Shown piece by piece: positions 14,685 through 29,544 of a stretch of DNA of 33,432 nt. The notes under the pieces were generated by a model, which did not search any database, was not told the DNA's origin, and was given only the letters and a program-made list of their open reading frames with translations. The stretch is from Deltaproteobacteria bacterium tcs-42 (GTDB lineage Bacteria; Desulfobacterota; Desulfuromonadia; Desulfuromonadales; Geopsychrobacteraceae): contig LLYT01000022.1 of assembly GCA_002049545.1 (NCBI GenBank), positions 1-33,432 of the forward strand, written 5' to 3'. Numbering within the stretch: the first letter of the stretch is position 1; each line of letters starts with the position of its first letter. The position numbers and the translations under genes were made by a program.

Positions 14685-15929
14685 CTAGAACTTTGCCAGT
14701 TCGTCGAGGAGATGTTCTTCATTACGGACGGGCTTGGCGCCGTGTTGCTGTAGCCATTGAATTTTTTCCCATGCCCTGCCTTCAGTATAATCATGCTCTT
14801 GTTGTTGGGGGAGAAAGTATACAGGAATACTCTGCTGAATAGCTTTTTCTGCCATCTCGAGACAGGGGAGGTTGCCGGCACCCCACCACTGGGTTGTGAT
14901 GACGAGAACCGCCGTTTGTTCGATGAGCTTGTTGGCTGCTGTCAGGGTTTGTTCCGCAAATGGATTGAACGGGATTTCTTGTGCGATGGGGATATTGAGG
15001 ACTGTCGCAACGCTTTCGTCTGAATCTCCTTGATTCAGCGGTCCGGCAGTGACATCGGCTTGCGCCAGATGGAGTCGGCGCAGCAAGGTTTTTCCACTGC
15101 CCCCTCCGCAGATCAGGTGAACTTTGAGGCCGCTGAGTCGATGGGTTGAATTGTTGATCAACGGCACTATTTGCGGGGTACCTGTCAAGGGGTTGCTGTC
15201 AACTTTAACGTCAACCCGGAAAATCCGTTGTAGATTGGCAGTCGTCATGACCTCTTCAGGTGCTCCGATTGCGGCAATCTTGCCATGCTCGGTCAATAGA
15301 AGAATTCGATGAGAGATCGCGGCAGCCAGATCGAGATCGTGACTGATCTGGATAATTGTTGTTTGCTGTTCCCGGTTCAATCGTACTAATAGTTCGGTCA
15401 GTTCCAAGCGGTGGTCAATATCCAGATGGCTGGTTGCTTCATCAAGAAACAGCACCGAGCTATTTTGTGCCAACGCTCGCGCCAGCAGGACCCGCTGTAG
15501 CTCCCCACCACTTAATTGCGTAACGGCACGCTCTGCCAGGGGCAGGATATCGGCCATGACCAGGGCTTGTTCGATTATGTGCAGATCGGTTTTATCCTGA
15601 AAACTGAGTCGATTTTTCCGATGAGGATAGCGACCCATAGCAACCAGTTCCCGCACCTTGTAGGGAAAGGGAATGGTGGATGATTGCGGAACCACTGCGA
15701 CTTTACGAGCAATCTCGCGCACCGGAATCTGCGCTATTGGAGTTTTCTCCCAAAGAATCTCACCGGTTTTTGTTTTGAGACTGCCGCGTAGCAAGCGTAA
15801 TAAGGTTGACTTGCCACAACCATTCGGGCCGATGATCGATAGAATTTCTCCCCGATTGACGTTGAAATTGAGATCGTTAAAGATTTCTGTCGCGGCAAAA
15901 GAGAAGGAGAGGTGGTTGATTTGAATCAT
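14685..15929 (-). CDS. btuD: Corrinoid (vitamin B12-type) ABC transporter ATPase with an extra C-terminal domain
   Basis: Residues 1-250 are a FecE/BtuD-type ATPase: Walker A GPNGCGKS (34-41), Q-loop VVPQSS (79-84), signature LSGGEL (139-144), Walker B LFLDEA (160-165) and switch histidine H197. Residues 262-414 are an additional domain absent from E. coli BtuD (about 250 residues). It starts with LKVHLICGGGSGKTLLRRLH, a glycine-rich loop that resembles but does not match a strict P-loop, continues with AGPLNQGDSDESVATVLNIP, and ends in a Rossmann-like alternation. Its function is unknown; a nucleotide or corrinoid role is only inference. It overlaps btuC by 4 bases (ATGA). The riboswitch at 19800-19976 marks this as a corrinoid system; siderophore use is less likely. 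Confidence 0.88.
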   Translation of the reverse strand: MIQINHLSFSFAATEIFNDLNFNVNRGEILSIIGPNGCGKSTLLRLLRGSLKTKTGEILWEKTPIAQIPVREIARKVAVVPQSSTIPFPYKVRELVAMGRYPHRKNRLSFQDKTDLHIIEQALVMADILPLAERAVTQLSGGELQRVLLARALAQNSSVLFLDEATSHLDIDHRLELTELLVRLNREQQTTIIQISHDLDLAAAISHRILLLTEHGKIAAIGAPEEVMTTANLQRIFRVDVKVDSNPLTGTPQIVPLINNSTHRLSGLKVHLICGGGSGKTLLRRLHLAQADVTAGPLNQGDSDESVATVLNIPIAQEIPFNPFAEQTLTAANKLIEQTAVLVITTQWWGAGNLPCLEMAEKAIQQSIPVYFLPQQQEHDYTEGRAWEKIQWLQQHGAKPVRNEEHLLDELAKF

Positions 15930-16930
15930 GAGCCCCCTCCGTTACGCCGCAACAGATAAAGGAAAAATGGTGCTCCCAGTATCGCAGTCACCACGCCGAC
16001 CGGAATTTCAGCGGGCGCATAGAGACTACGGGCAATGGCATCGGCAATGATCAAAAAACTACTGCCCAGCAGTGCCGAATAGGGAAGTAACAGCCGATGA
16101 CCAGGGCCCCAGAGCAACCGGCAAATATGCGGGATCACTAATCCAACAAAGCCGATCAAACCGGCCAGGGCTACGGCACAGGCGGTTAAAGCTCCAGCCA
16201 GAGCAAACAGGCTCAGTCGACTTCTGCCAACATGCAGCCCCAAATCGGCAGCAGTTTCTTCTCCCTGAGTGAATAGATCGAGGTTGAGAGACTGTGACCA
16301 GAGCAGCACAAAGCCAATGACAACCCACAACCATCCCCACGAAAGCCAGTTGGGGTCAGCCAGGGAAAGGTTCCCCGCCAGCCAGAAGATCGCCTGCCGG
16401 GTTGCATCGGCGGGTGCTCGCCAGAGGAGGAACAACAGTAGAGCCGCCGCCAGACTGCCGACCATTACACCAGATAGAATCAGGGTGTGCGAGGAGCAGG
16501 TGTGGGCTTGGGCAACCAGGTAAACCAGCAGCAGTGCCGTAATGGCCCCGATAAAAGCGGCGAGGGGAATCACGATGGGAGATTGAATGCCGCAAGTCAA
16601 AGCGGCAACGGCTCCCAGCGCTGCACCACCAGAGACACCGAGTAAATATGGATCGGCAAGGGGATTGCGTAAGACCGCCTGAAAAGTGACGCCGGACAAA
16701 CTCAAGGCTGCTCCAACAAGACCCGCGAGAAGGGCCCGGGGAAACCGAATCTGCCAGATAATAACCTGTTCAACCTCAGATCCCGTTCCCTGGAATAAGA
16801 TAGCAAACAGCTTGCTCCATGAAAGGTCGAGGCTTCCCGCCGAAAGTGACATCAATATCGCCAGCAGGGGTGATAACAGCAGGAAAACTTGCCCCAGCCT
16901 TCTCAGGTTGATATTGCGCCTTTTATTCAT
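15926..16930 (-). CDS. btuC: Corrinoid ABC transporter permease BtuC-type (FecCD family)
   Basis: The 334-residue inner-membrane permease has about nine to ten hydrophobic segments and the FecCD family motifs: IRFPRALLAGLVGAALSLSG, FQAVLRNPLADPYLLGVSGGAALGA, and near the C-terminus the coupling loop GLIGFVGLVIPHICRLLWGPGHR. It would pass corrinoid from BtuF to the cytoplasm. The start at 16930 is chosen over an in-frame ATG at 16972: it gives a normal family N-terminus and an 8-base overlap with the btuF stop rather than a 50-base one. Confidence 0.9.
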   Translation of the reverse strand: MNKRRNINLRRLGQVFLLLSPLLAILMSLSAGSLDLSWSKLFAILFQGTGSEVEQVIIWQIRFPRALLAGLVGAALSLSGVTFQAVLRNPLADPYLLGVSGGAALGAVAALTCGIQSPIVIPLAAFIGAITALLLVYLVAQAHTCSSHTLILSGVMVGSLAAALLLFLLWRAPADATRQAIFWLAGNLSLADPNWLSWGWLWVVIGFVLLWSQSLNLDLFTQGEETAADLGLHVGRSRLSLFALAGALTACAVALAGLIGFVGLVIPHICRLLWGPGHRLLLPYSALLGSSFLIIADAIARSLYAPAEIPVGVVTAILGAPFFLYLLRRNGGGS

Positions 16931-17801
16931 CGATTGAAATGCTCGGGTGGAGAGCTTTAGCCAGCGCCTCAATGCCGAGAATCATCCTTGGTCCCGGGCG
17001 GTGAATCCAGTCAGCTTCGAGCTGGATAATTCGCTGATTTCGTACCGCTTGTAATTGTGGCCAACGATCAAAAAAATGTTTTGGGGCTGGCTGCCCCGGA
17101 TAAGTAGACACAATAATAGCTTCCGGATTGACGGTTAATAATGCTTCAGAATTCCAGGTCGGGTAGCGTGATGGCCCCTTCGGCACCACATTATGTCCCC
17201 CGGAGATCTCGATAATATCAGCGATAAAAGTATCCGGACCGGCAACGGTAAGTGGTTGTAGCATGACACATTCAAGAGTCGTCTGTGGTTTAAGTTTGGC
17301 AATCTGTCGTTGTATCTTTTGAATTCTCGTTTGGATTGAGCCAACTAAATGTCTAGCCTTTTGTTCTGTTCCGGTGATCCGACTGATGTTCAGGATTGTT
17401 TTCAGGGTTTCAGCAACCGTTTGCGGATAGATCACGTAAACAGGAATATGCATCAACTCTAATCGCCGGATCAGCGCCGGACGATTTATGTCAGCAGAGG
17501 CAATTATCAGGTCTGGTTTGTGGAGCAGAATGCTCTCCAGACTGGGGTCGGCATATCCTCCCACTTTTGGCAGTTTCAGTGCCGCCTCAGGGTAGTTACA
17601 AAAATCGGTCACAGCAACAATATTTTTTTCAAGCCCAAGTTCAAACAGGATTTCGGTGACGCTGGGAACCAGGGAGACGATTCGTTGCGGAGGGTGGGGA
17701 AGAGATATCTTGCGATTTACAGCGTCGGTGAAATCGGCAGCAAAAAGTTGTGTCGATAGGCACAGCAACAGCAACGTTAGTGTCAGGGCAGTTTTTTTCA
17801 T
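16923..17801 (-). CDS. btuF: Corrinoid ABC transporter periplasmic binding protein BtuF-type
   Basis: The 292-residue protein has a signal peptide (MKK, hydrophobic core, cleavage near LFA at 19-21). The mature part is a type III periplasmic-binding fold: PPQRIVSLVPSVTEILFELG and VVAVTDFCNYPEAALKLPKVGGYADPSLESILLHKPDLI are typical of BtuF. The single rigid helix linking two lobes is expected around residues 145-170 (ARHLVGSIQTRIQKIQRQIA). It receives corrinoid from BtuB and hands it to BtuC. It lies 62 bp after btuB across a strong hairpin, so read-through or an internal promoter is needed. Confidence 0.9.
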   Translation of the reverse strand: MKKTALTLTLLLLCLSTQLFAADFTDAVNRKISLPHPPQRIVSLVPSVTEILFELGLEKNIVAVTDFCNYPEAALKLPKVGGYADPSLESILLHKPDLIIASADINRPALIRRLELMHIPVYVIYPQTVAETLKTILNISRITGTEQKARHLVGSIQTRIQKIQRQIAKLKPQTTLECVMLQPLTVAGPDTFIADIIEISGGHNVVPKGPSRYPTWNSEALLTVNPEAIIVSTYPGQPAPKHFFDRWPQLQAVRNQRIIQLEADWIHRPGPRMILGIEALAKALHPSISIDE

Positions 17802-17863: not shown

Positions 17864-19672
17864 TTAAAAGAGAGCTGTCAAACTTACAAACAGGGCTCGT
17901 CCTGGCATCGGGTACCCTTCGTTGACTTCATACTCCCGGTCAAAAATATTTTTGATCCCGAGGCTCCCTTCCAGATCAAAATTGCTGGTCGCGAAAGAGC
18001 GTTTGAGGGTGGCGTCAAAGACGGCATACATATTGGTGTCTCGGTCCGGTTTTTCGTAATATTTCAGGTATTGACCTTGAAGCCTGAGAAACGTTTTTTC
18101 CCAGAGCCCTAGATCGATTGAACCGTGCAACTGATGACGTGGCTTTGTATTGACGAATTCATCGGTTGTTTTATTAACAGCGTGCAGATAGGTATAGTTT
18201 CCGGCCAGAGTGATAAAGTCGGTAGCCGCCCAGTTTCCTTTAATCTCGGCACCGTAGATTTGAGCATCGGTAACATTCGAAGGAGTCCATTTGCCGCCGG
18301 CATCTGGAGCCCAGTCGATCAGATCTTCAACCTCACGCAGGAACAGGGCAAAAGACAGGCTGTCACTGTTGTTGAAATTGTGATCAGCGCCGATTTCATA
18401 TTCAATCGCTGTCTCCGGGTCAAGGTACGGGTTGCCTGCTGTCCAACCTGTATCAGGCCAGTACAGATCGTTCAGAGAAGGAGCCCTGTAGGAGATGCCG
18501 ACAGTGGCCCGCAGTTTTGTCTTGTCGTTCAGGCGGTATAGTAATGCGGCTCTTGGACTAACCTGGCTGGAGTAATCAGAAGGTTTGTCGTAGCGCATAC
18601 CCAGAGCGGCCTTGATTTTTTCGGTCAGTTGGGCGTTGATCTCGCCGAACAGGGCAAAGTCATCCTGTTCATGTCTTCCGTTAGCCGTTGACTCCAGTTG
18701 GTAGTTTCTTGCTTCTCCGCCAATCAGGATGTCACTCCATCCAAGCGACAGAGTATCTTGAAGTTCCAGGGTCCTAGTTTTGATGAGGTGGGTATCGTCT
18801 TCCGAATTGTTGGGATTCACATAGTGCAGGTGGTTCCGCTGATATGTCCCCCGAGCCTGCAGTTCGGAGTTGCCGAGGGGTCCTTTCAATGTCAGATTAT
18901 AGAGGCTGTCTCTGACTTCCTGGTTAGCATATGGCGATGGCAAGCTTGTTTTCCCGGGGACTCCAGTCTCCTTATTTAGGTGAAAGGTGGAAAAATCCAA
19001 GCTGAATTTGTAGGGTAAAGCGATCTTGACAGCAGCATCAATGCTCTGTTGATCCAGCTCAGAATTCTCCCTATAACCATATGATTCGGCGTCGCTCAGC
19101 CCCAGTCGAAAGCTGACATTGCTGATTGTTTGTGCTGCAGTCAGTGACAGCTGACGCGTATCCCAGCGGCTTTGTTTCCAGCTGAGGGTTGTCAGCGGGC
19201 TGTCACTAGCTTTCTTGGTAATGATTTGCACCACGCCACCCAGCGCATTTGCTCCGTAGACGTTTGAAGCTGGTCCGCGAAGAATTTCAATACGCTCAAT
19301 TTGTTCCAGTACGATGGGCAGTTGGCTGAGATCGAATTGTCCGTTCTGGGCTGAATTCATCCGGATGCCATCAATCAGGAGCAACACTTGCGCAGCTTCA
19401 GAACCACGAATACTGAGTGAAGCAACGGAACCCAAAGATCCATTGTTAACAATCTGTACGCCAACTTCATGCTGAAGAACTTCGGCGAGGGTTGTACTGC
19501 CGCTGTTGACGATATCTTTCTGGGTAATAATCGTGATTGACGCGGGGACTTCAGAGATGGATTGGGCTGTCCGGCTGGCGGTAACCACAATCGGATCCAA
19601 TTTGACAACCTCTGCCAAGAGTGGTGCCGCTGTGACCAGCAGAGCACAAAGTACGATGATACTTTTCTTCAT
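17864..19672 (-). CDS. btuB: TonB-dependent outer-membrane corrinoid receptor BtuB
   Basis: The 602-residue receptor imports cobalamin or cobinamide across the outer membrane using TonB energy. Residues 1-19 are a signal peptide (MKKSIIVLCALLVTAAPLL). The TonB box is DPIVVTA at about 26-32, followed by a plug domain with SITIITQKDI, LAEVLQHEVGVQIV and RGPASNVYGANALGGVVQIITKK. The remainder is an aromatic-rich barrel ending in the terminal phenylalanine (ALFVSLTALF) expected for Bam-assembled barrels. GGAGGA eight bases before the ATG at 19672 fixes the start; an upstream frame extension runs into the riboswitch. Expression is controlled by that riboswitch. Confidence 0.93.
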   Translation of the reverse strand: MKKSIIVLCALLVTAAPLLAEVVKLDPIVVTASRTAQSISEVPASITIITQKDIVNSGSTTLAEVLQHEVGVQIVNNGSLGSVASLSIRGSEAAQVLLLIDGIRMNSAQNGQFDLSQLPIVLEQIERIEILRGPASNVYGANALGGVVQIITKKASDSPLTTLSWKQSRWDTRQLSLTAAQTISNVSFRLGLSDAESYGYRENSELDQQSIDAAVKIALPYKFSLDFSTFHLNKETGVPGKTSLPSPYANQEVRDSLYNLTLKGPLGNSELQARGTYQRNHLHYVNPNNSEDDTHLIKTRTLELQDTLSLGWSDILIGGEARNYQLESTANGRHEQDDFALFGEINAQLTEKIKAALGMRYDKPSDYSSQVSPRAALLYRLNDKTKLRATVGISYRAPSLNDLYWPDTGWTAGNPYLDPETAIEYEIGADHNFNNSDSLSFALFLREVEDLIDWAPDAGGKWTPSNVTDAQIYGAEIKGNWAATDFITLAGNYTYLHAVNKTTDEFVNTKPRHQLHGSIDLGLWEKTFLRLQGQYLKYYEKPDRDTNMYAVFDATLKRSFATSNFDLEGSLGIKNIFDREYEVNEGYPMPGRALFVSLTALF

Positions 19673-19716
19673 TTTTGTTCCTCCTGTTTTCCCGTGAGAG
19701 CCGACCAACACGCAAT

Positions 19717-19749
19717 AAAAAAACCCGACACCATGACAGGTGCGGGTTT
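19717..19749 (-). terminator. Riboswitch expression-platform terminator before btuB
   Basis: On the minus strand, AACCCG-CACC and GGTG-T-CGGGTT form a stem with one bulged T and a TGTCAT loop, followed by seven Ts. It lies between the aptamer and the btuB start, the position expected for a cobalamin-controlled transcription terminator. Confidence 0.75.
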
Positions 19750-19799
19750 CCGTATTATTATCCGCGCTTGACCACACTCCCTTTCCCGGGGAGATTAAA

Positions 19800-19976
19800 G
19801 TGGATGTTTCACGGCAGGTCTTCTGATTTACGAGTTTCGACATTGGTCGAAGTTTTAAACCGCCTTCCCGGTTTAGCTAACCAGTGGCATGTGGTTTAAA
19901 TCAGCTCGATCACAGCGGCGGGTCCATGGAGGAATTTCACCTCGCTTCCCTATTATGCTTTTACAGCACCGTAAAA
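19800..19976 (-). ncRNA. Cobalamin riboswitch controlling btuB-btuF-btuC-btuD
   Basis: On the minus strand the conserved aptamer elements occur in order: GGTGCTGTAAAAGCATAATAG, GGGAAGCGAGGTGAAATTCC, GGACCCGCCGCTGTGAT, the GCCACTGG segment, GGGAAGGCGG, and finally the CAGAAGACCTGCCGTGA box. This is the canonical long form with all core boxes. Bound cobalamin should favour the downstream terminator and repress uptake. The stretch 19673-20380 otherwise holds the leader, promoter, a MITE copy and no gene. Confidence 0.93.
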
Positions 19977-19995
19977 CGATTCAATTGTGGAGATG

Positions 19996-20380: not shown

Positions 20381-21316
20381 TTAAGCTGTTGATATTATGG
20401 CAAAAATTAAAGTGCAAAGCGAAGTCGCCACCATCAACCGGATGGTATCTACTATTTTAGCGGCAGTGATCGGCTCGTTTGGATCGCCCATTAAGGGGCG
20501 GGAGCCGGGTTGGCCACCGTAGCTGATTTCGCCGCCCAGTTGGATGTTGAGAGCTCCGGCAAATGCGGCTTCAATCTGACCGCCATTGGGACTGGGGTGG
20601 TTGTGGCGGTCGCGGCGAAACATTTGCCACGCTTGTTTGTGGTTTTGCCCGCAAAGCCAGGCGGCGATGGGGACCAGCAGGGCGGTGAGGCGGGCGGGAA
20701 TAAAGTTGGCCAGGTCATCAAGCTTGGCCGCGGCCCAACCAAACTGGAGATAGCGCTCATTTTTGTAGCCAAAGGTGGAATCGAGGGTGTTGATGGCTTT
20801 GTAGAAGATGATGCCGGGGGCGCCACCGAGGCCGGCAAATAACAGGGGGGCGGTTATGCCATCGACGGTGTTTTCGGCGACACTCTCAATGGTGGCGCGG
20901 GCGATGGCAGTTTCACACAGATTGTCGGTGTCCCGGCCAACCAGCATCGCGACTTGCTCCCTGGCTTGGGGGAGATCGTCGGTGACCAATGGGGTATGTA
21001 CTGCCAGAGCGTGCTGTTTTAGGCTTTGCATGGCAAAGCCGGTGGTCATAAAGGCGATGGCAACCAGATCGCCACACAGGGGATGGATAACGGCTGCTAA
21101 TTTGCAGAGGAACCAAGCCAGGACGGTGCTGCAGCCTACCACAATTACCACAGCGATAATCCCGGCCCGCCGGTCAAAGAAGCGGTTGCGCAGCGGGGTT
21201 TCAATGGCCAGTGCCAGTTTCCCTATGGCGCCGACCGGATGGGGGAGCCAGCGGGGATCGCCCAGTAAGCGGTCGAGGCACAGGGCGAGGATGATCTGCA
21301 CGGAGAGTGGGATCAT
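20381..21316 (-). CDS. cbiB: Adenosylcobinamide-phosphate synthase CbiB
   Basis: The 311-residue membrane protein joins (R)-1-amino-2-propanol phosphate, the CobD product, to adenosylcobyric acid. Family signatures include the N-terminal LALCLDRLLGDPRWLPHPVG, IARATIESVAENTVDGITAPL near the middle, the FYKAINTLDSTFGYKNERY segment, and RDRHNHPSPNGGQIEAAFAGAL, with hydrophobic segments between. It overlaps the preceding CobD/CobQ fusion gene by 4 bases (ATGA), and its substrates come directly from the two domains of that protein. It is the last gene of the riboswitch-controlled unit. Confidence 0.95.
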   Translation of the reverse strand: MIPLSVQIILALCLDRLLGDPRWLPHPVGAIGKLALAIETPLRNRFFDRRAGIIAVVIVVGCSTVLAWFLCKLAAVIHPLCGDLVAIAFMTTGFAMQSLKQHALAVHTPLVTDDLPQAREQVAMLVGRDTDNLCETAIARATIESVAENTVDGITAPLLFAGLGGAPGIIFYKAINTLDSTFGYKNERYLQFGWAAAKLDDLANFIPARLTALLVPIAAWLCGQNHKQAWQMFRRDRHNHPSPNGGQIEAAFAGALNIQLGGEISYGGQPGSRPLMGDPNEPITAAKIVDTIRLMVATSLCTLIFAIISTA

Positions 21317-23883
21317 AAATCCAGCACCTGATAGATTCTGTCCATGTCGATGGCAGCGCGAACATGGTCAGCCAACCGGTCAAGGGCGGGTTCCAGATCG
21401 TAGACCGCCTGCACAGTCTTCAGGGGATTAAGCTCTTTGCGTTGTCGGAGACGGTCGAGAAACCAGCGGCGGAACGGATCGGCGTCAAATACGCCATGGA
21501 GATAGGTGCCCCAAATCTGCCGGTGTGCTGGGTGGCAGCCGCCGATGGTTGCACTGTCCTGCCGCTCGATAAGCGGTTGCAGGTTGGTATCGTCGCTATT
21601 GCCGTGGTGGATTTCGTAGCCGCTCAGCTTACAGTTTGATGGCAGGTGGGTGGCGCGACAGTTGGTCATGGTTTTCTGTCGCTCCAGGGTTGTCTCCAGC
21701 GGCAACAGTCCCAGACCAGAGCAGGTTTTGCCGTGCGATTCAATGGCAAACGGGTCGGCGATGGTGTTCCCCAGCAGTTGGTAGCCGCCACAGATGCCGA
21801 CAATTTCAGTGGTTTTCGTGGCCAGATGTTTTATCGCTCCCCCCAGCTGCGAGCTGTCGAGATAGTTCAGGTCGGCCATGACATTTTTGCTGCCCGGTAA
21901 AATAACCGCATCGGGCTGACCCAAATCGTCCACATGGCAAACCCGGCGCAGATTGACATCGGGTTCAATTCGCAAGGCATCAAAATCGGTAAAGTTAGAG
22001 ATGTGGGGCAGGTCGATCAGGGCAATGTCAAGCTCGGCGTCAGGGTTGGTATCCCGGTCAAAAATCCCATCTTTGAAATCGACCGAATCCTCTTCCGGCA
22101 GTCCCAGATTCTGCAGGTAGGGGACAATGCCGAAAAAAGGTTTGCCGGTGTGGGTGCTGGTCAGGTCGAGGGCGTTGCCGAGAAGGTTAGCATCACCGCG
22201 AAAACGGTTGATGACGAAACCGCTTACCAGTTGCCGTTCCCATTCGTTAAGTAACTCCATGGTGCCGACAAAAGCGGCAAACACTCCGCCGCGGTCGATA
22301 TCACCAACCAATAACACTTTTGCCGCCGCGTAACGGGCCATGTTCATATTAACGATATCGCACTGTTTTAAATTTATCTCGGCGGGGCTGCCAGCCCCTT
22401 CGAGCACCATTACCTGATGTTCACTGGCAAGGCTGTCGTAGCACTGTTGCACCTGTCCAAAAATCTCCTGCCGCCGTTTGGCATAATCCATAAAGTGCAT
22501 GGTTTCGGTCACCTTGCCGTTGACAATGACCTGCGAACCGGTGGCACTACAGGGTTTTAATAGCACCGGATTCATCCGCACATCGGCATCCAGACGGCAC
22601 GCTTGGGCTTGCAGCACCTGCGCTCGACCCATCTCATCACCCTGAAAGGTGACACACGAATTGAGCGACATGTTCTGCGCTTTAAATGGTGCAACCGACA
22701 CCCCGTTTTGTTGGAGGATACGACACAACGCTGCAGTCAGGATACTTTTCCCCGCATTGGAACCGGTTCCCTGAAACATGATAGCCGGGGTCTTGCGACC
22801 CTTTTTTGTCCTTTTGGACTGCAGACAAGTACGCAGTCCATCGCATAATTGTTGCTGCTCTTCAACTGTTCGCACAGCAACCCGAAAATAACGATTGTCG
22901 AGTCCCTGAAAATTGTCACAGCAGCGAATAACAATCCCTTGAGTCAATAATTTGCGTGTCAGTGTAGCAGCATCCAGCGTAGGGTGATCAATCCGTACAA
23001 GGAGGAAATTGGCATCACCAGAAAGGGGAGACAGACCGTGTATTGACTTGAGTTGTGAAAATAGATCAAGGCGTTGCTGACGAACATAGTTGCGTGTCCG
23101 GATGAGGAACTCACAATCCTGGAGTGCACGAATCCCGACTGCCTGAGCAATGGTATTGACCGACCAATCGGGTCGCAAATGACGCATGGCAATAATCACG
23201 TTTTGATCTGCCAGGGCATATCCTAAACGTAAACCGGGAATTGCCCACGATTTGGTCATCGACTGCACAATAATAAGGTTGGCAGGCCGCTGCCGGTGTA
23301 GTGAATGCTCGGGGGAAGCAAAATCGATAAATGATTCGTCAACAACAAAATAATTTTGCGGATGTCCCAGAACTAATTCCCGTAACGCCTCGGCATCGCA
23401 CAATTTTCCAGTGGGGTTGTTGGGGTGACCAAGAATGACCAGATGATCATCCTGCAACATCGATGCAAGTTGACAGATGTCGAGTCGAAACTCATTTTTT
23501 GCGAGCAGTGGCAGCGTATCAATTGGCAAACCAGTGACCTTTGCCATGGAAATATAGTCGGTGTAACTGGGAACCGGCACCAGCAATCGCTTATGTTCCA
23601 AGACCTGCGGCAGTAGATACAGCAACTCACTTGCACCATTGCCAACGATGATCTGATCAGATTCAATCTGATGATGTGTGGCCAGTGCTTTGACCAGCTC
23701 TTTCGCTTCAGAGTCGGGGTAATGGCTCAGATTGCTGACTTGAGCGCTGACCAGTGGACGTAACCATGGAGGAAAACCCAGGGGATTAATACTGGCAGAA
23801 AAGTCGATCAGCCTGTCTTGCGGTATGCCGCTGGTTTGGCTGGCCTGACGCAGATTTCCGCCATGTTTTTCGGTCTTGCTCAT
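21313..23883 (-). CDS. Fusion of threonine-phosphate decarboxylase CobD and cobyric acid synthase CobQ
   Basis: The 856-residue protein joins two cobalamin enzymes. Residues 1-~355 are a PLP-dependent fold-type I decarboxylase making aminopropanol phosphate: ASINPLG (30-36), GNGASELLYL (81-90), HPNNPTGK (153-160) and the Schiff-base lysine K211 in SMTKSWAIPGLRLGY. A short basic linker (357-364, KRTKKGRK) leads to CobQ (residues 366-856). CobQ amidates four side chains of adenosylcobyrinic diamide: P-loop QGTGSNAGKS (371-380), KAQNMSLNS, VLEGAGSPAEINL, and a class I glutaminase domain with nucleophile C698 (GICGGYQLLG) and H796 (GTYLHGVFD). Each half is full length with its key residues present. 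It overlaps cobS by one base and cbiB by four. Confidence 0.93.
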   Translation of the reverse strand: MSKTEKHGGNLRQASQTSGIPQDRLIDFSASINPLGFPPWLRPLVSAQVSNLSHYPDSEAKELVKALATHHQIESDQIIVGNGASELLYLLPQVLEHKRLLVPVPSYTDYISMAKVTGLPIDTLPLLAKNEFRLDICQLASMLQDDHLVILGHPNNPTGKLCDAEALRELVLGHPQNYFVVDESFIDFASPEHSLHRQRPANLIIVQSMTKSWAIPGLRLGYALADQNVIIAMRHLRPDWSVNTIAQAVGIRALQDCEFLIRTRNYVRQQRLDLFSQLKSIHGLSPLSGDANFLLVRIDHPTLDAATLTRKLLTQGIVIRCCDNFQGLDNRYFRVAVRTVEEQQQLCDGLRTCLQSKRTKKGRKTPAIMFQGTGSNAGKSILTAALCRILQQNGVSVAPFKAQNMSLNSCVTFQGDEMGRAQVLQAQACRLDADVRMNPVLLKPCSATGSQVIVNGKVTETMHFMDYAKRRQEIFGQVQQCYDSLASEHQVMVLEGAGSPAEINLKQCDIVNMNMARYAAAKVLLVGDIDRGGVFAAFVGTMELLNEWERQLVSGFVINRFRGDANLLGNALDLTSTHTGKPFFGIVPYLQNLGLPEEDSVDFKDGIFDRDTNPDAELDIALIDLPHISNFTDFDALRIEPDVNLRRVCHVDDLGQPDAVILPGSKNVMADLNYLDSSQLGGAIKHLATKTTEIVGICGGYQLLGNTIADPFAIESHGKTCSGLGLLPLETTLERQKTMTNCRATHLPSNCKLSGYEIHHGNSDDTNLQPLIERQDSATIGGCHPAHRQIWGTYLHGVFDADPFRRWFLDRLRQRKELNPLKTVQAVYDLEPALDRLADHVRAAIDMDRIYQVLDL

Positions 23884-24641
23884 CAGATCATTCCTTGGTG
23901 AGCGAGGATGACAACACCGAGTGGTGGTAACAATTCGACAAGTTCACAGGTCGCACCCAGGGTGTCGCCAGTAAATCCACCAATTTTACGGTGACTGTAG
24001 TGACCCAATGCCCAGATTCCAACACAGACAACAACAGCGACAAGCCCCCCGGCTGACCTGCCCAGGAGGGCGAAAGAAGAGACCGTCAAAACGGCTAAAG
24101 GAATACCCAAACGGACCAAGCTGAATTGACTGTTGGTAAAAGCCGCCGTCCCGACAGATCGTGCGTAAGGGAGCCAGCGACTGATAACCGGCAGAGCACA
24201 GCGACCGGCAACAGGCATCAACAGGACAACCTGCCAGCGCCAGACTGGCGGCAATGCGAGAAGCAGTGTCAACTTGAACAGCAGAACAAGAATAATTGCT
24301 GTAACCCCCATGGGGCCGGAGCGACTGTCCTTCATAATTTCCAGCATCCGCACCGGACCGCGACTGCTGAAAAAAGCATCGGCACTGTCAGCTAAACCAT
24401 CCAGGTGCAATGCTCCCGAGATTGAGATCATTGCCAACACCAGCAACACGCTGGCAACCGACACCGGTAATAACCAGCATAGGAAAAAATCCAGTGCCAC
24501 CAACATCAGACCGATCAGTAACCCCACCAGGGGGTACCAGTCGGGGCTCTTGTTAAAATCGGTTTCATTGCCGCACCACGATTCTGGAACTGGCAGAATC
24601 GTGAGAAAGCGCAAGGCGGAAAAAAAAGGTTTCAGACTCAT
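23883..24641 (-). CDS. cobS: Adenosylcobinamide-GDP ribazoletransferase CobS (CobV)
   Basis: The 252-residue inner-membrane enzyme condenses adenosylcobinamide-GDP with alpha-ribazole (phosphate) in the last step of cobalamin assembly. The metal-binding motif DGLADSADAF lies at 81-90, followed by EIMKDSRSGPMG (101-112), the family's two most conserved stretches. About six hydrophobic segments and the C-terminal GGFTGDTLGATCELVE agree. It overlaps cobT by 4 bases (ATGA) and the fusion gene by one (TGATG), indicating tight coupling. Confidence 0.95.
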   Translation of the reverse strand: MSLKPFFSALRFLTILPVPESWCGNETDFNKSPDWYPLVGLLIGLMLVALDFFLCWLLPVSVASVLLVLAMISISGALHLDGLADSADAFFSSRGPVRMLEIMKDSRSGPMGVTAIILVLLFKLTLLLALPPVWRWQVVLLMPVAGRCALPVISRWLPYARSVGTAAFTNSQFSLVRLGIPLAVLTVSSFALLGRSAGGLVAVVVCVGIWALGHYSHRKIGGFTGDTLGATCELVELLPPLGVVILAHQGMI

Positions 24642-25717
24642 CTGTTGTCAGACTGTTCTTTTGCTTCGGAAACAGCGGCTTCACTGAATGTTGCCATCTC
24701 AGTCAATATCGCCACGGCACCTTCAACCAGATTCATGGCGACTGCAGCTCCCGTCCCTTCGCCCAAACGAAATTGCAGGTCAAGAAGAGGCTCTTTCCCC
24801 AGATCGGCAAGTGCAGCAACCTGCCCCTTCTCTACACTACGATGTGCCGCAATCATATATTCCCTGGATTCGGGTGCCAATCGGCCAGCAAGCAAGGCTC
24901 CAGCCGTTGAGATAAAACCATCAATGACAATTGGTTTTTTCAGTGACGCCGCACCCAGAATCAGACCTGCAATGCCAGCAATTTCAAATCCTCCCACTTT
25001 ACTCAGTACATCAATCGGATCAGCGGGGTCTGGAGTGTTGAGGCTTAACGCTTTTTCGAGAATCTCAATCTTATGTTCCAGTTGTGCATCATCCAGACCG
25101 GTACCACGGCCGACAACCTTGGTGACTGGCAACCGGCAGAGGGTCGCAACCAGAGCACTACTTGGAGAGGTGTTCCCAATCCCCATATCACCGGTACCAA
25201 ACAGATCGGTTGAATCGGCAAGCTCTTGTGCTACACCGATACCTGCTTCAAGGGCCAGGACAGCCTGTTCTCGACTCATGGCTGGACCTGTAGCAAAGTT
25301 GGCCGTTCCGGCTGCAATTTTCCGATCCATGATAGCGTTGCCACTCGAGAGAGTAGAAAGGTCACCGGCAACTCCCATATCGACAATTTTAACCTTGGCA
25401 CCCGCTTGTTTCGCCAGAACATTGATTCCGGCAACACCGTTAATAAAGCCTCGCACCATCTCTACGGTCACCTCTTTCGGGAAAAGGCTGACACCAGAAT
25501 CGGTTATCCCGTGATCTCCTGCCATAACAACAATGGTTTTACGCTCAACGCTGGGACGCATGGAGCCGCAGATGCCAGCCATGTCCAGTGCCAGATCCAT
25601 CATTCGACCTAACGCCCAGTGGGGCATGATTAACTGATCGAGGCGCTCTTTGGCCTGAATCCGAGTGGTTTTGTTTTGTCTTTCAATCGCGTTTATGGTT
25701 TTTTTCAGTAAATCCAT
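24638..25717 (-). CDS. cobT: Nicotinate-nucleotide-dimethylbenzimidazole phosphoribosyltransferase CobT
   Basis: The 359-residue cytoplasmic enzyme activates the lower ligand base: nicotinate mononucleotide plus dimethylbenzimidazole (or another base) gives alpha-ribazole phosphate. Family motifs are VMAGDHGITDSGVSLFPKEVT (64-84), GDMGIGNTSPSSAL (176-189), VGGFEIAGIAGLILGAA and the catalytic glutamate E320 in RLGEGTGAAVAMNL. The length is standard. It follows cobU by 8 bp. No bluB or bza genes for base synthesis are in the window, so the source of the base is not shown. Confidence 0.96.
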   Translation of the reverse strand: MDLLKKTINAIERQNKTTRIQAKERLDQLIMPHWALGRMMDLALDMAGICGSMRPSVERKTIVVMAGDHGITDSGVSLFPKEVTVEMVRGFINGVAGINVLAKQAGAKVKIVDMGVAGDLSTLSSGNAIMDRKIAAGTANFATGPAMSREQAVLALEAGIGVAQELADSTDLFGTGDMGIGNTSPSSALVATLCRLPVTKVVGRGTGLDDAQLEHKIEILEKALSLNTPDPADPIDVLSKVGGFEIAGIAGLILGAASLKKPIVIDGFISTAGALLAGRLAPESREYMIAAHRSVEKGQVAALADLGKEPLLDLQFRLGEGTGAAVAMNLVEGAVAILTEMATFSEAAVSEAKEQSDNR

Positions 25718-25725
25718 TGTGATAA

Positions 25726-26268
25726 TTAGACTCCTTTCAATGTGAGTGGAATACCGGAGACCATGAAAGTTGCCTCGTCCGCAAAACTTGCTATGGTCTG
25801 GTTACAACGTCCGAGGCAATCCCGGTAATGCCTGGACACCGAGTCGGCAGGGACCAGACCCATCCCCAGTTCATTCGTCACAAAAATAATAGTTTGTTTT
25901 CCTTTCCGGCAAACATTGACCAATTCCGTACATTGCTCACTGATCATCTGTTCGGTGAGAAGATTTCCTTGTTTTTCAGCCTCGTAGATGAGGTTGTTGA
26001 TCCACAGGGTCAGGCAATCGATAAGGAGAATATCACAATGACTTGCTTGTTCCACGGCGTCAGCCAGATCAAGCGGTGCTTCGATTGTCACCCACTCTCG
26101 ATCGGTTCGCTGCTGCTGGTGTAAGGAAATTCGTTGTTCCATCTCCCTGTCAATAGGTGGACAGGTTGCCAGGTAGGCCCTTTTCCCGGAGTGACTTTCA
26201 GCGAGCTTCTGTGCGTAGCTGCTTTTGCCGCTGCGGCAACCTCCACTGATGTAAATCAAATGACTCAT
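25726..26268 (-). CDS. cobU: Adenosylcobinamide kinase / guanylyltransferase CobU (CobP)
   Basis: The 180-residue bifunctional enzyme phosphorylates adenosylcobinamide and then forms adenosylcobinamide-GDP. The P-loop is GGCRSGKS (9-16); H50 in RISLHQQQR corresponds to the histidine that carries GMP; DILLIDCLTLWINNLI and TNELGMGLVPADSVSRHYRDCLGRCNQTIA are family hallmarks. It is the first gene after the riboswitch and terminator at 26283-26490. It allows use of scavenged cobinamide, consistent with the btu genes downstream. Confidence 0.96.
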   Translation of the reverse strand: MSHLIYISGGCRSGKSSYAQKLAESHSGKRAYLATCPPIDREMEQRISLHQQQRTDREWVTIEAPLDLADAVEQASHCDILLIDCLTLWINNLIYEAEKQGNLLTEQMISEQCTELVNVCRKGKQTIIFVTNELGMGLVPADSVSRHYRDCLGRCNQTIASFADEATFMVSGIPLTLKGV

Positions 26269-26339: not shown

Positions 26340-26490
26340 ATATCTGCCCTCGTCCTCAGTCCACGAAGCATGGGCAGTCGTGTTCAAGAAAAAAAGTGTC
26401 TGGCTTTCGGAGCGGTCAGTCTTTCCGATTACAGTGGCGGGTCCGCGACGGATTTACACCGGCTTCCTTTTTTTCGTGTTGATGTTGAAG
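26340..26490 (-). ncRNA. Cobalamin riboswitch controlling the cobU-cobT-cobS-cobDQ-cbiB operon
   Basis: The minus strand carries the aptamer core GGAAGCCGGTGTAAATCC then GCGGACCCGCCACTGTAATCGG, followed by CTCCGAAAGCCAGAC. The late part differs from the btuB copy: there is no obvious GCCACTGG/GGGAAGG pair or full AGAAGACCTGCC box, so this may be a shorter or divergent subclass. Ligand-bound RNA should favour the terminator. The interval 26269-26660 holds this leader, its promoter and the DUF1015 upstream region, and no gene. Confidence 0.87.
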
Positions 26491-26492
26491 CG

Positions 26493-26521
26493 ATTAGAAT
26501 GGAAAACGTCTCTATCTGCAA
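26493..26521 (-). promoter_or_regulatory. Candidate sigma-70 promoter for the cob operon
   Basis: The -35 is TTGCAG (26516-26521) and the -10 is TCTAAT (26493-26498), with a 17-bp spacer, ending just upstream of the riboswitch. The -10 matches consensus at five of six positions; the -35 is weaker. Confidence 0.45.
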
Positions 26522-26660
26522 GAAAAATTTAAGCTAAAATTATTTTGCCGGTCAGTTGTTTCTCCATCGATCAGAAATATGCTACTTTGCATTTCTTGAC
26601 TGGAGGTGTGATTTGCAGCACAGATTCTGAATTCTGGTGAGAAATCGAAAGGGATACAAC

Positions 26661-28187: not shown

Positions 28188-29508
28188 TTAAGCATCATTC
28201 CCTTGAGGCAAAACCAGATTCAAGATAACTCCAACCACCCCCGCCAGACCAATCCCGCCCAGTTTCACGATGGCAAGATCAAAGGTCATACCGCCGATAC
28301 CAAAAACCAGGATGATGGCAACAATAGCGAGATTGCGTGGTTGCATCAGGTCGGTTCCGGCTTTAACCAGAGTATTGATGCCGATGACGGCAATGGCGCC
28401 GAATAGCAGCACCATAATTCCACCCATAACCGGAACAGGGATTGAGTTCAGGAACCCACCCAGTTTGCCGATGAAGGCGAGGAGGATTGCGGCAATGGCT
28501 GCCCAGGTCATGATGGCCGGATTAAAGGACTTGGTCAGGGCTACTGCACCGGAAACTTCAGAATAGGTGGTGTTGGGAGGTCCACCAAGAAGTGCCGCAA
28601 AGCTGGTTGCAACACCATCACCCAGCAGGGTGTTTTCGATACCTGGATCTTCAACGTAGTCTTTACCCGAAATGCCACCGATAGCGAGAATATCACCAAA
28701 ATGTTCAATCGCTGGAGCAATAGCGACGGGAACAATAAACAAGATAGCTTCGAGATTCCAGACCGGGAAGGTGAAATCGGGGATGGCAAACCATGGAGAC
28801 TCCACAACTTTTTGCATTGAAATCAGTGCCGGGCTGGTCCAGTTGGGGAGTGCACCCGGATCAAAAGCGGCCTGAGTCGAAGCGGTGAATCCAGTCAAAT
28901 CGAGAAGCAAAGAGGTGAAATAGCCGGCAACGATGCCACTTAGAATCGGGATCAATTTGAATAGCCCGCGACCGAGCAAGGAGACCAGAATAGTGACCGC
29001 CAGTGCGACTCCGGCAACGATATAGGCAGTGGTTTCCGGAACCAGCCAGGCCGAACCATCACCGGTGCGACCTGAAGCCATATGGATAGCGACAGGTGCC
29101 AGGACCAGGCCGATAACCATAATCACCGGACCGGTGACGATCGGGGGCAGGACTTTGTGCAGGATATCGGAACCGAAGATCCGGACAACAAAGCTCAGAA
29201 CCGCATAGAGCAGACCGGCGGCAACCAGGCCGCACATGGTTCCGGCAACCCCCCCATTGCCCGACACCGTAGATAATAGGAGCGATAAAAGCAAAACTTG
29301 AGGCCAGAAAGACCGGGACTCGACCACGAGTGATCAGTTGGAAAATCAGGGTTCCGATACCAGCAGTAAATAATGCAACATTGGCATTAAGTCCTGTCAG
29401 CAGGGGAACCAAAACCAGGGCGCCAAACGCAACGAACAGCATCTGGGCACCGAGCAAACAGTCCTTCGCTCGAAAATTGTAATCTGTGGGGGATGGGGTC
29501 TGCTTCAT
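28188..29508 (-). pseudogene. uraA: Uracil permease UraA (NCS2 family), frameshifted
   Basis: Two reading frames together make one complete uracil:proton symporter of about 440 residues. The N-terminal part starts at an ATG at 29508 with [20 protein letters not shown] and runs to [10 protein letters not shown]. The rest (28188 to about 29250) has PPIVTGPVIMVIGLVLAP, the conserved acidic PAIEHFGDILAIG helix and LLGDGVATSFAALLGGPPNTTYSEV. They are separated by a run of seven Gs (29247-29253 as Cs on the plus strand); removing one G restores WGVAGTMCGLVAAG. This may be a real mutation, slippage-based switching or a sequencing error. It follows upp by 36 bp, forming a salvage operon. Confidence 0.85.
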
Positions 29509-29544
29509 CTTTTGAATCCTTCTCCGCAAAAGGTTTGTAGGGGG

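Follow-up and report, generated by a model that had tools for sequence, protein, structure and literature searches.

Why are two enzymes of late cobamide synthesis, the L-threonine-O-3-phosphate decarboxylase CobD and the adenosylcobyric acid synthase CobQ (CbiP), encoded as a single 856-residue protein in Deltaproteobacteria bacterium tcs-42? The gene lies on contig LLYT01000022.1 of assembly GCA_002049545.1, in a stretch of 33,432 nucleotides that was analysed as a whole and is called the window here. Taken as a whole, the best explanation is that the fusion is very probably a normal, inherited bifunctional enzyme. The N-terminal CobD half would convert threonine-phosphate into aminopropanol phosphate, the C-terminal CobQ half would amidate adenosylcobyrinate a,c-diamide to adenosylcobyric acid, and each half most likely behaves like its stand-alone counterpart, present in a fixed 1:1 dose and feeding a separate CbiB. 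The protein would be expressed from what is probably a cobU-cobT-cobS-cobDQ-cbiB operon controlled by a B12 riboswitch, while its gene most likely arose when a neighbouring cobD-cobQ pair came to be read through, and appears to have spread through Desulfuromonadia and relatives, partly sideways.

Two enzymes in one reading frame

The fusion gene and its parts, with the evidence for each, are as follows (ORF, open reading frame; PLP, pyridoxal 5'-phosphate).

21313..23883, minus strand: cobD-cobQ (cobD/cbiP) fusion gene, 856 amino acids, ATG start (ORF and translation; NCBIfam and Pfam)
22834..23865, minus strand: CobD domain, residues 7-350, predicted L-threonine-O-3-phosphate decarboxylase with the presumed PLP lysine K211 (TIGR01140; 1lc5)
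22792..22815, minus strand: basic linker KRTKKGRK, residues 357-364 (sequence; survey of length and K/R content over 64 fused proteins)
21322..22785, minus strand: CobQ domain, residues 367-854, predicted adenosylcobyric acid synthase with P-loop 371-380, C698 and H796 (PRK00784, TIGR00313)

An earlier note, made from the sequence alone, had proposed that full-length CobD and CobQ form one protein here, and both the ORF and the NCBIfam matches bear this out, with the strand being minus. The CobD half scores 321.8 bits with TIGR01140 at residues 7-350, against a curated cut-off of 290.55, and lower with the histidinol-phosphate transaminase model hisC (212.8 bits, below the cut-off of 276.55). 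Its closest solved relative is 1lc5 (E 5.4e-58), which we take to be the Salmonella L-threonine-O-3-phosphate decarboxylase; K211 stands opposite the lysine of the SLTK motif of 1lc5 and, by this alignment, is presumably the PLP-binding lysine. Of the PDB sequences listed with an E value of 1e-10 or lower, all 38 align best within the CobD half. The CobQ half reaches 608.1 bits with PRK00784 at residues 367-854 (cut-off 273) and 490.9 bits with TIGR00313 at 368-849 (cut-off 309.9), and Pfam recognises an aminotransferase domain, the CbiA nucleotide-binding domain and GATase_3 in the fusion. K211, the P-loop (QGTGSNAGKS, residues 371-380), C698 and H796 all stand where the earlier note had placed them; in CobQ, K379 presumably acts in the P-loop and C698 and H796 as the glutaminase cysteine and histidine. 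Across the whole source genome, a draft of 121 contigs whose completeness is given as 100, TIGR01140 matches nine places, and the fusion gene is the only one above the cut-off.

These residues are conserved among the fused proteins. In a survey of 64 of the 68 fused frames (L018, L063, L096 and L103 omitted; 63 distinct, L010 and L083 being identical), K211 occurs in 63, the P-loop K379 and C698 in all 64, and H796 in 63, the remaining protein (L085) having an X from undetermined bases. When 61 of these rows were compared at conserved columns (L022, L085 and L093 omitted as truncated or odd), the window protein had 0 departures over about 36 CobD and about 111 CobQ columns. Two fused proteins from other genomes are possibly decaying: L060 (G119) carries K211R and differs from the family at 10 conserved CobQ columns, with no CbiB, CobS or CobJ match within the 18 kb examined around it, and L086 (G417) has 11 changes at conserved CobD columns and 1 in CobQ. 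The eight-residue basic linker described in the earlier note is KRTKKGRK (residues 357-364). The span from window residue 352 to 366 measures 15-18 residues in 58 of the 64 proteins (15 in the window, 16 in most; the six outliers have 19, 20, 21, 23, 26 and 81), and 63 of the 64 contain at least two K/R in it, the window having six.

The same uninterrupted frame is found in 33 of the 136 genomes of the order Desulfuromonadales (three cut at a contig end: G010, G086 and G012), in 41 of 277 genomes in the search of the class, those 33 included, and in 25 of 395 genomes of a phylum sample, of which G000 and G274 had already been counted. In the phylum count, G637 was scored as fused after later inspection of its locus and G594 despite an incomplete CobQ half. 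G009, where CobD begins at the end of a contig, was not scored as fused. The linker had been singled out in the earlier note for a check for a missed stop; the frame is open there in independent assemblies, including the 33 of 136 order genomes, and is therefore neither chance nor artefact, so that the fusion is real and widespread. A match in Subdoligranulum variabile (H4) looked fused in BLAST and was rejected, its CobD and CobQ lying in separate frames. As judged from sequence, a genuine bifunctional CobD-CobQ next to cbiB is supported.

Known relatives and the origin of the fusion

The CobD-CobQ fusion is already known and is not new. A 2012 report describes a "CobD/CbiP fusion" on both the chromosome and a plasmid of Geobacter (Trichlorobacter) lovleyi SZ (Glov_3554 and the plasmid copy Glov_3679), and aligns the plasmid fusion fully with a Pelobacter carbinolicus ortholog (PMC3403914). 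According to the same report, strain SZ grows in B12-free medium over at least 40 transfers with both CobD/CbiP copies fused (PMC3403914), an indirect sign that the fused enzymes are functional. The rarity implied by the earlier note, for which the two are usually separate proteins, does not hold up, since the fusion is in print (PMC3403914) and frequent in the class (41 of 277 genomes); prior characterisation in relatives, which the note had said would count against it, exists as far as description goes, from 2012 in G. lovleyi.

Like the window protein, the G. lovleyi fusion is one protein with CobD followed by CobQ, the plasmid copy being 58.9% identical in one piece over query residues 2-854; unlike it, there are two copies, and the plasmid copy, located close to cobT, shares its plasmid with ring genes and has no cbiB beside it. 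Leptospira interrogans likewise has CobD then CobQ in one frame (865 codons there), with cobU before and cbiB after, and its protein is 46.3% identical to that of the window. However, Leptospira belongs to another phylum, and its cluster also includes most ring genes, CbiA and an adenosylcobinamide amidohydrolase. The gene seen in L. interrogans strain FDAARGOS_203 is assumed to be LB_151, which appears in a published table under the name "histidinol-phosphate aminotransferase and cobyric acid synthase" (PMC4758666). The CobBC family (NF053748) also joins a CobD-type PLP enzyme to a cobyrinate-type amidotransferase, but in the reverse order and with an a,c-diamide synthase as the amidotransferase; membership of the window protein in it was rejected at 184 bits against a cut-off of 950, with the best stretch in the aminotransferase half only.

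The open-licence literature, in which slash-written names such as "cobD/cbiP" can be missed, yielded no enzymology of the fused protein, and the accessible portion of a Geobacter genome paper lists cobQ without mention of a fusion (PMC2700814). In a plasmid collection, three fused records (one from T. lovleyi, two from L. interrogans) carry no annotation beyond "cobyric acid synthase", and therefore a scan that trusts names could wrongly call CobD missing.

A second kind of CobQ fusion is present in the same order. There, 45 genomes have a CobQ match (E up to 1e-80) but no CobD-CobQ fusion, and 41 of them have a CobJ/CbiH match in a frame of at least 640 residues; inspection of the loci (L028-L043 and others; 19 distinct loci in the tree) confirmed ORFs of about 780 residues containing CobJ plus CobQ. 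As in the window, CobQ is the C-terminal half and cbiB follows in the loci inspected. Unlike the window, the N-terminal partner is CobJ/CbiH, CobQ belongs to a separate lineage and CobD has a gene of its own after cbiB. The CobJ-CobQ proteins group together in the CobQ tree (95 rows, quick method), as a single clade of 19 rows with a support of 99. The two kinds of long frame never occur together in a genome of the order, and where a fused genome has a CobJ match (23 genomes), CobJ lies in frames of at most 391 residues (two such matches in each of G103 and G092). CobQ lineages with two different partners, CobD or CobJ, in one order offer a natural comparison for tests of channelling versus dosage fixing. 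G092 (C43, C54) has, besides its fused CobD-CobQ, a 526-residue frame with another CobQ match at 41% identity.

As for the origin, an adjacent pair of free cobD-like and cobQ genes, in that order, is a likely starting state of the fusion. Such genes lie head to tail with 8-base overlaps in Pseudomonas and Deinococcus, are separated by a 7-base gap in Calditerrivibrio, where cbiB follows, and by a 23-base gap in Lachnospira; the first gene of the pair is annotated as a histidinol-phosphate transaminase in Deinococcus and Calditerrivibrio.

Contrary observations and rival explanations

Several observations weigh against reading the fusion as a commonly inherited enzyme with two working halves. 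The CobQ tree needs four changes of the label "fused", with the free CobQ of families f99 and f64 placed among fused proteins, and the CobD tree (81 rows) needs three, one of them owed to a mislabelled row (L027_D, labelled free, is the contig-truncated fused gene of G012). The CobQ tree left out L018, L063, L096 and L103 together with repeat fetches of CobJ-CobQ and free-CobQ loci; the CobD tree left out the same fused rows and the free CobD-like frames below 140 bits (Calditerrivibrio, Pseudomonas, Deinococcus). One old fusion with few splits plus transfer between families would fit these trees, by which a single origin is not proven, and the placement of long branches such as Leptospira is unsure. 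Transfer between families is suggested by close proteins in f19 and f6 and by both CobQ types occurring inside f1, f6 and f12. Beyond the order, an adjacent CbiB match accompanies 13 of 31 further fused loci (1.5-kb flanks, in which misses are possible). Lastly, a search of the source draft genome found neither CobJ/CbiH nor CbiD, nor any CbiA-like GATase_3 protein, and the CobQ half may have no home-made substrate.

This last point deserves a closer look. GATase_3 matches in the source draft genome are limited to the CobQ of the fusion and a 208-residue protein, HisH-like by eye, beside hisB/hisA. Only two tetrapyrrole methylase (TP-methylase) genes were found, by eye one RsmI-like and the other a CbiE-CbiT fusion beside a CobC-like gene; the CbiE-CbiT fusion is 39% and 21% identical to Leptospira proteins. 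It is kept in isolation with the CobC-like phosphatase at about 55000-64000 of G000:C34 (L124), in this genome in which CobJ and CbiD were not found. CbiZ was not found in the source genome search either. The set detected comprises CobQ, CbiB, CobU, CobS, a CobC-like protein, CobT, CobD, an adenosyltransferase of the CobA/CobO type and a Btu-like importer, and such a set matches what a published scheme for gut bacteria classes as "cobyrinate diamide auxotrophy and salvage" (PMC8123684). Assembly gaps break the ring cluster in the genus, G008 having a CbiD match without a CobJ match and G004 a CobJ match without a CbiD match, and therefore absence from the source draft genome is not proof. In G. 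lovleyi SZ most ring genes are on the plasmid, according to the 2012 report (PMC3403914). The substrate of CobQ is either salvaged or made by ring genes missing from the assembly, and the view in the earlier note that the fusion supplies both CbiB substrates is uncertain for the source organism, since a search of its draft genome turned up no CobJ, CbiD or CbiA.

Among the rival explanations, channelling, by which the fusion would dock with CbiB at the membrane and pass on both substrates, is improbable. The products of the two halves are the substrates of CbiB, and cbiB is indeed the next gene, as the earlier note had it, with a 4-base overlap (ORF 20381-21316); 30 of 33 loci, almost all from the order, have a CbiB match after the fusion, and a paper says of P. 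denitrificans that the decarboxylase CobC and CobD (there the CbiB homologue) share one complex (PMC6249242), which lends the idea slight support. However, CobQ is joined to CobJ/CbiH at least as often (in 41 of the 136 order genomes CobJ matches within a frame of at least 640 residues), 18 of the 31 fused loci outside the order have no adjoining CbiB match (a divergent CbiB could be missed), and no cbiB lies beside the fusion on the G. lovleyi plasmid pSZ77. Moreover, the same paper has separate CobD, CbiP and CbiB making B12 in engineered Escherichia coli (PMC6249242), and the CobD and CobQ halves hand no product to each other, CbiB being outside the fusion. An AlphaFold2 model built with 6 sequences was too poor to inform on channelling (predicted local distance difference test, pLDDT, 53; predicted template modelling score, pTM, 0.40) and was not used. 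The bolder form, in which fused CobD-CobQ and the membrane protein CbiB would make up one assembly, a single soluble polypeptide making both substrates and passing them straight on, is a shade less probable again; if true, a CobDQ-CbiB assembly would explain the near-constant short linker and the cobDQ-cbiB neighbourhood within the order despite great divergence.

That the CobQ half is an idle relic of a lost corrin ring pathway, with CobD alone being used, in salvage, is decidedly unlikely. It would agree with the failure to find CobJ, CbiD and CbiA in the source draft genome and with its mere two TP-methylase genes, as well as with the somewhat greater divergence of CobQ relative to CobD, whose mean ratio is 0.76 in the window versus 0.54-0.66 in 11 relatives. 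On the other hand, the window CobQ half does not depart from the conserved columns, so that decay of this half was rejected as showing no sign there, and its ratio of nonsynonymous to synonymous substitution (dN/dS) is 0.07 and 0.11 in two pairs with the window, with dS near saturation. CbiE-CbiT is retained in the source genome, and assembly gaps divide the ring genes in the relatives G004 and G008. L020 and L022, which are a close pair and both lack a CobJ match, give a dN/dS of 0.13 in CobD and 0.11 in CobQ. A general tie between the fusion and loss of the ring pathway was also rejected, as a CobJ match is present in 23 of the order's 33 fused genomes and absent from 10.

A second product of the gene, free CobD or free CobQ, arising through internal initiation at M369 or when ribosomes slip by -1 on the A AAA AAG of the linker, is very unlikely. 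The window linker does hold an in-frame A AAA AAG followed by GGGTC-GCAA-GACCC, where a -1 shift would terminate after 41 codons, and M369 is present in 64 of 64 fused proteins. However, an in-frame heptamer of the frameshift type occurs in just 1 of 15 other distinct linkers, and it is a different one (AAAAAAA, in L017), so that a programmed frameshift was rejected for want of conservation. M at position 369 also occurs in seven free CobQ types examined (L095, L097, L098, L099, L126, L127 and L128), where it is not the start codon, and is therefore structural; an internal start was rejected on this ground, and initiation there would leave almost no residues ahead of the P-loop. Lastly, an assembly or sequencing artefact in the form of a missed stop, for which the draft state of the genome (121 contigs) might speak, is scarcely credible and is ruled out for the family by the recurrence of the open frame across many independent assemblies, including single-contig genomes and complete named records.

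Gene neighbourhood

The other features around the fusion gene are the following (ABC, ATP-binding cassette).

26374..26531, minus strand: cobalamin riboswitch, 105 nt upstream of the cobU ORF (RF00174, 46.5 bits, gathering 31.5)
25726..26268, minus strand: cobU (PRK05800, 188 bits, cut-off 161)
24638..25717, minus strand: cobT (TIGR03160, 430.3 bits, cut-off 319.3; 4-base overlap with cobS)
23883..24641, minus strand: cobS (TIGR00317, 141.3 bits, cut-off 110; 1-base overlap with the fusion gene)
20381..21316, minus strand: cbiB (TIGR00380, 248.2 bits, cut-off 165.9; PF03186; 4-base overlap with the fusion gene)
19796..19988, minus strand: second cobalamin riboswitch, upstream of btuB (RF00174, 106.9 bits)
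17864..19672, minus strand: TonB-dependent receptor, probably BtuB (TIGR01779, 248.9 bits, under the cut-off of 599.7; likely start MKKSII at 19672)
14685..17801, minus strand: btuF-btuC-btuD-like corrinoid ABC importer (best NCBIfam matches to models of B12/corrinoid or related ABC transporters; B12-specific cut-offs not reached)

The riboswitch at 26374..26531 lies 105 nt before cobU and therefore probably heads the operon cobU-cobT-cobS-cobDQ-cbiB. Among 33 fused loci (31 from the order, 2 from elsewhere), 32 have a CobS match ahead of the fusion and 30 a CbiB match behind it. The late genes adjoin the ring genes cbiA, C, K/X, L, D, E, F, G, H and J in G022, G088, G115 and G039, the importer comes after cbiB in the window, G001 and G005, and the ring genes detected in G001 and G004 lie on a contig other than that of the late genes. 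The longest btuB ORF (17864-19843, minus strand) begins inside the second riboswitch, the likely start being MKKSII at 19672. At 28188-29529 on the minus strand of the window, a uracil permease-like gene beside upp (both named by eye) is split into two frames that overlap at about 29060-29330, which suggests a frameshift or a sequencing error.

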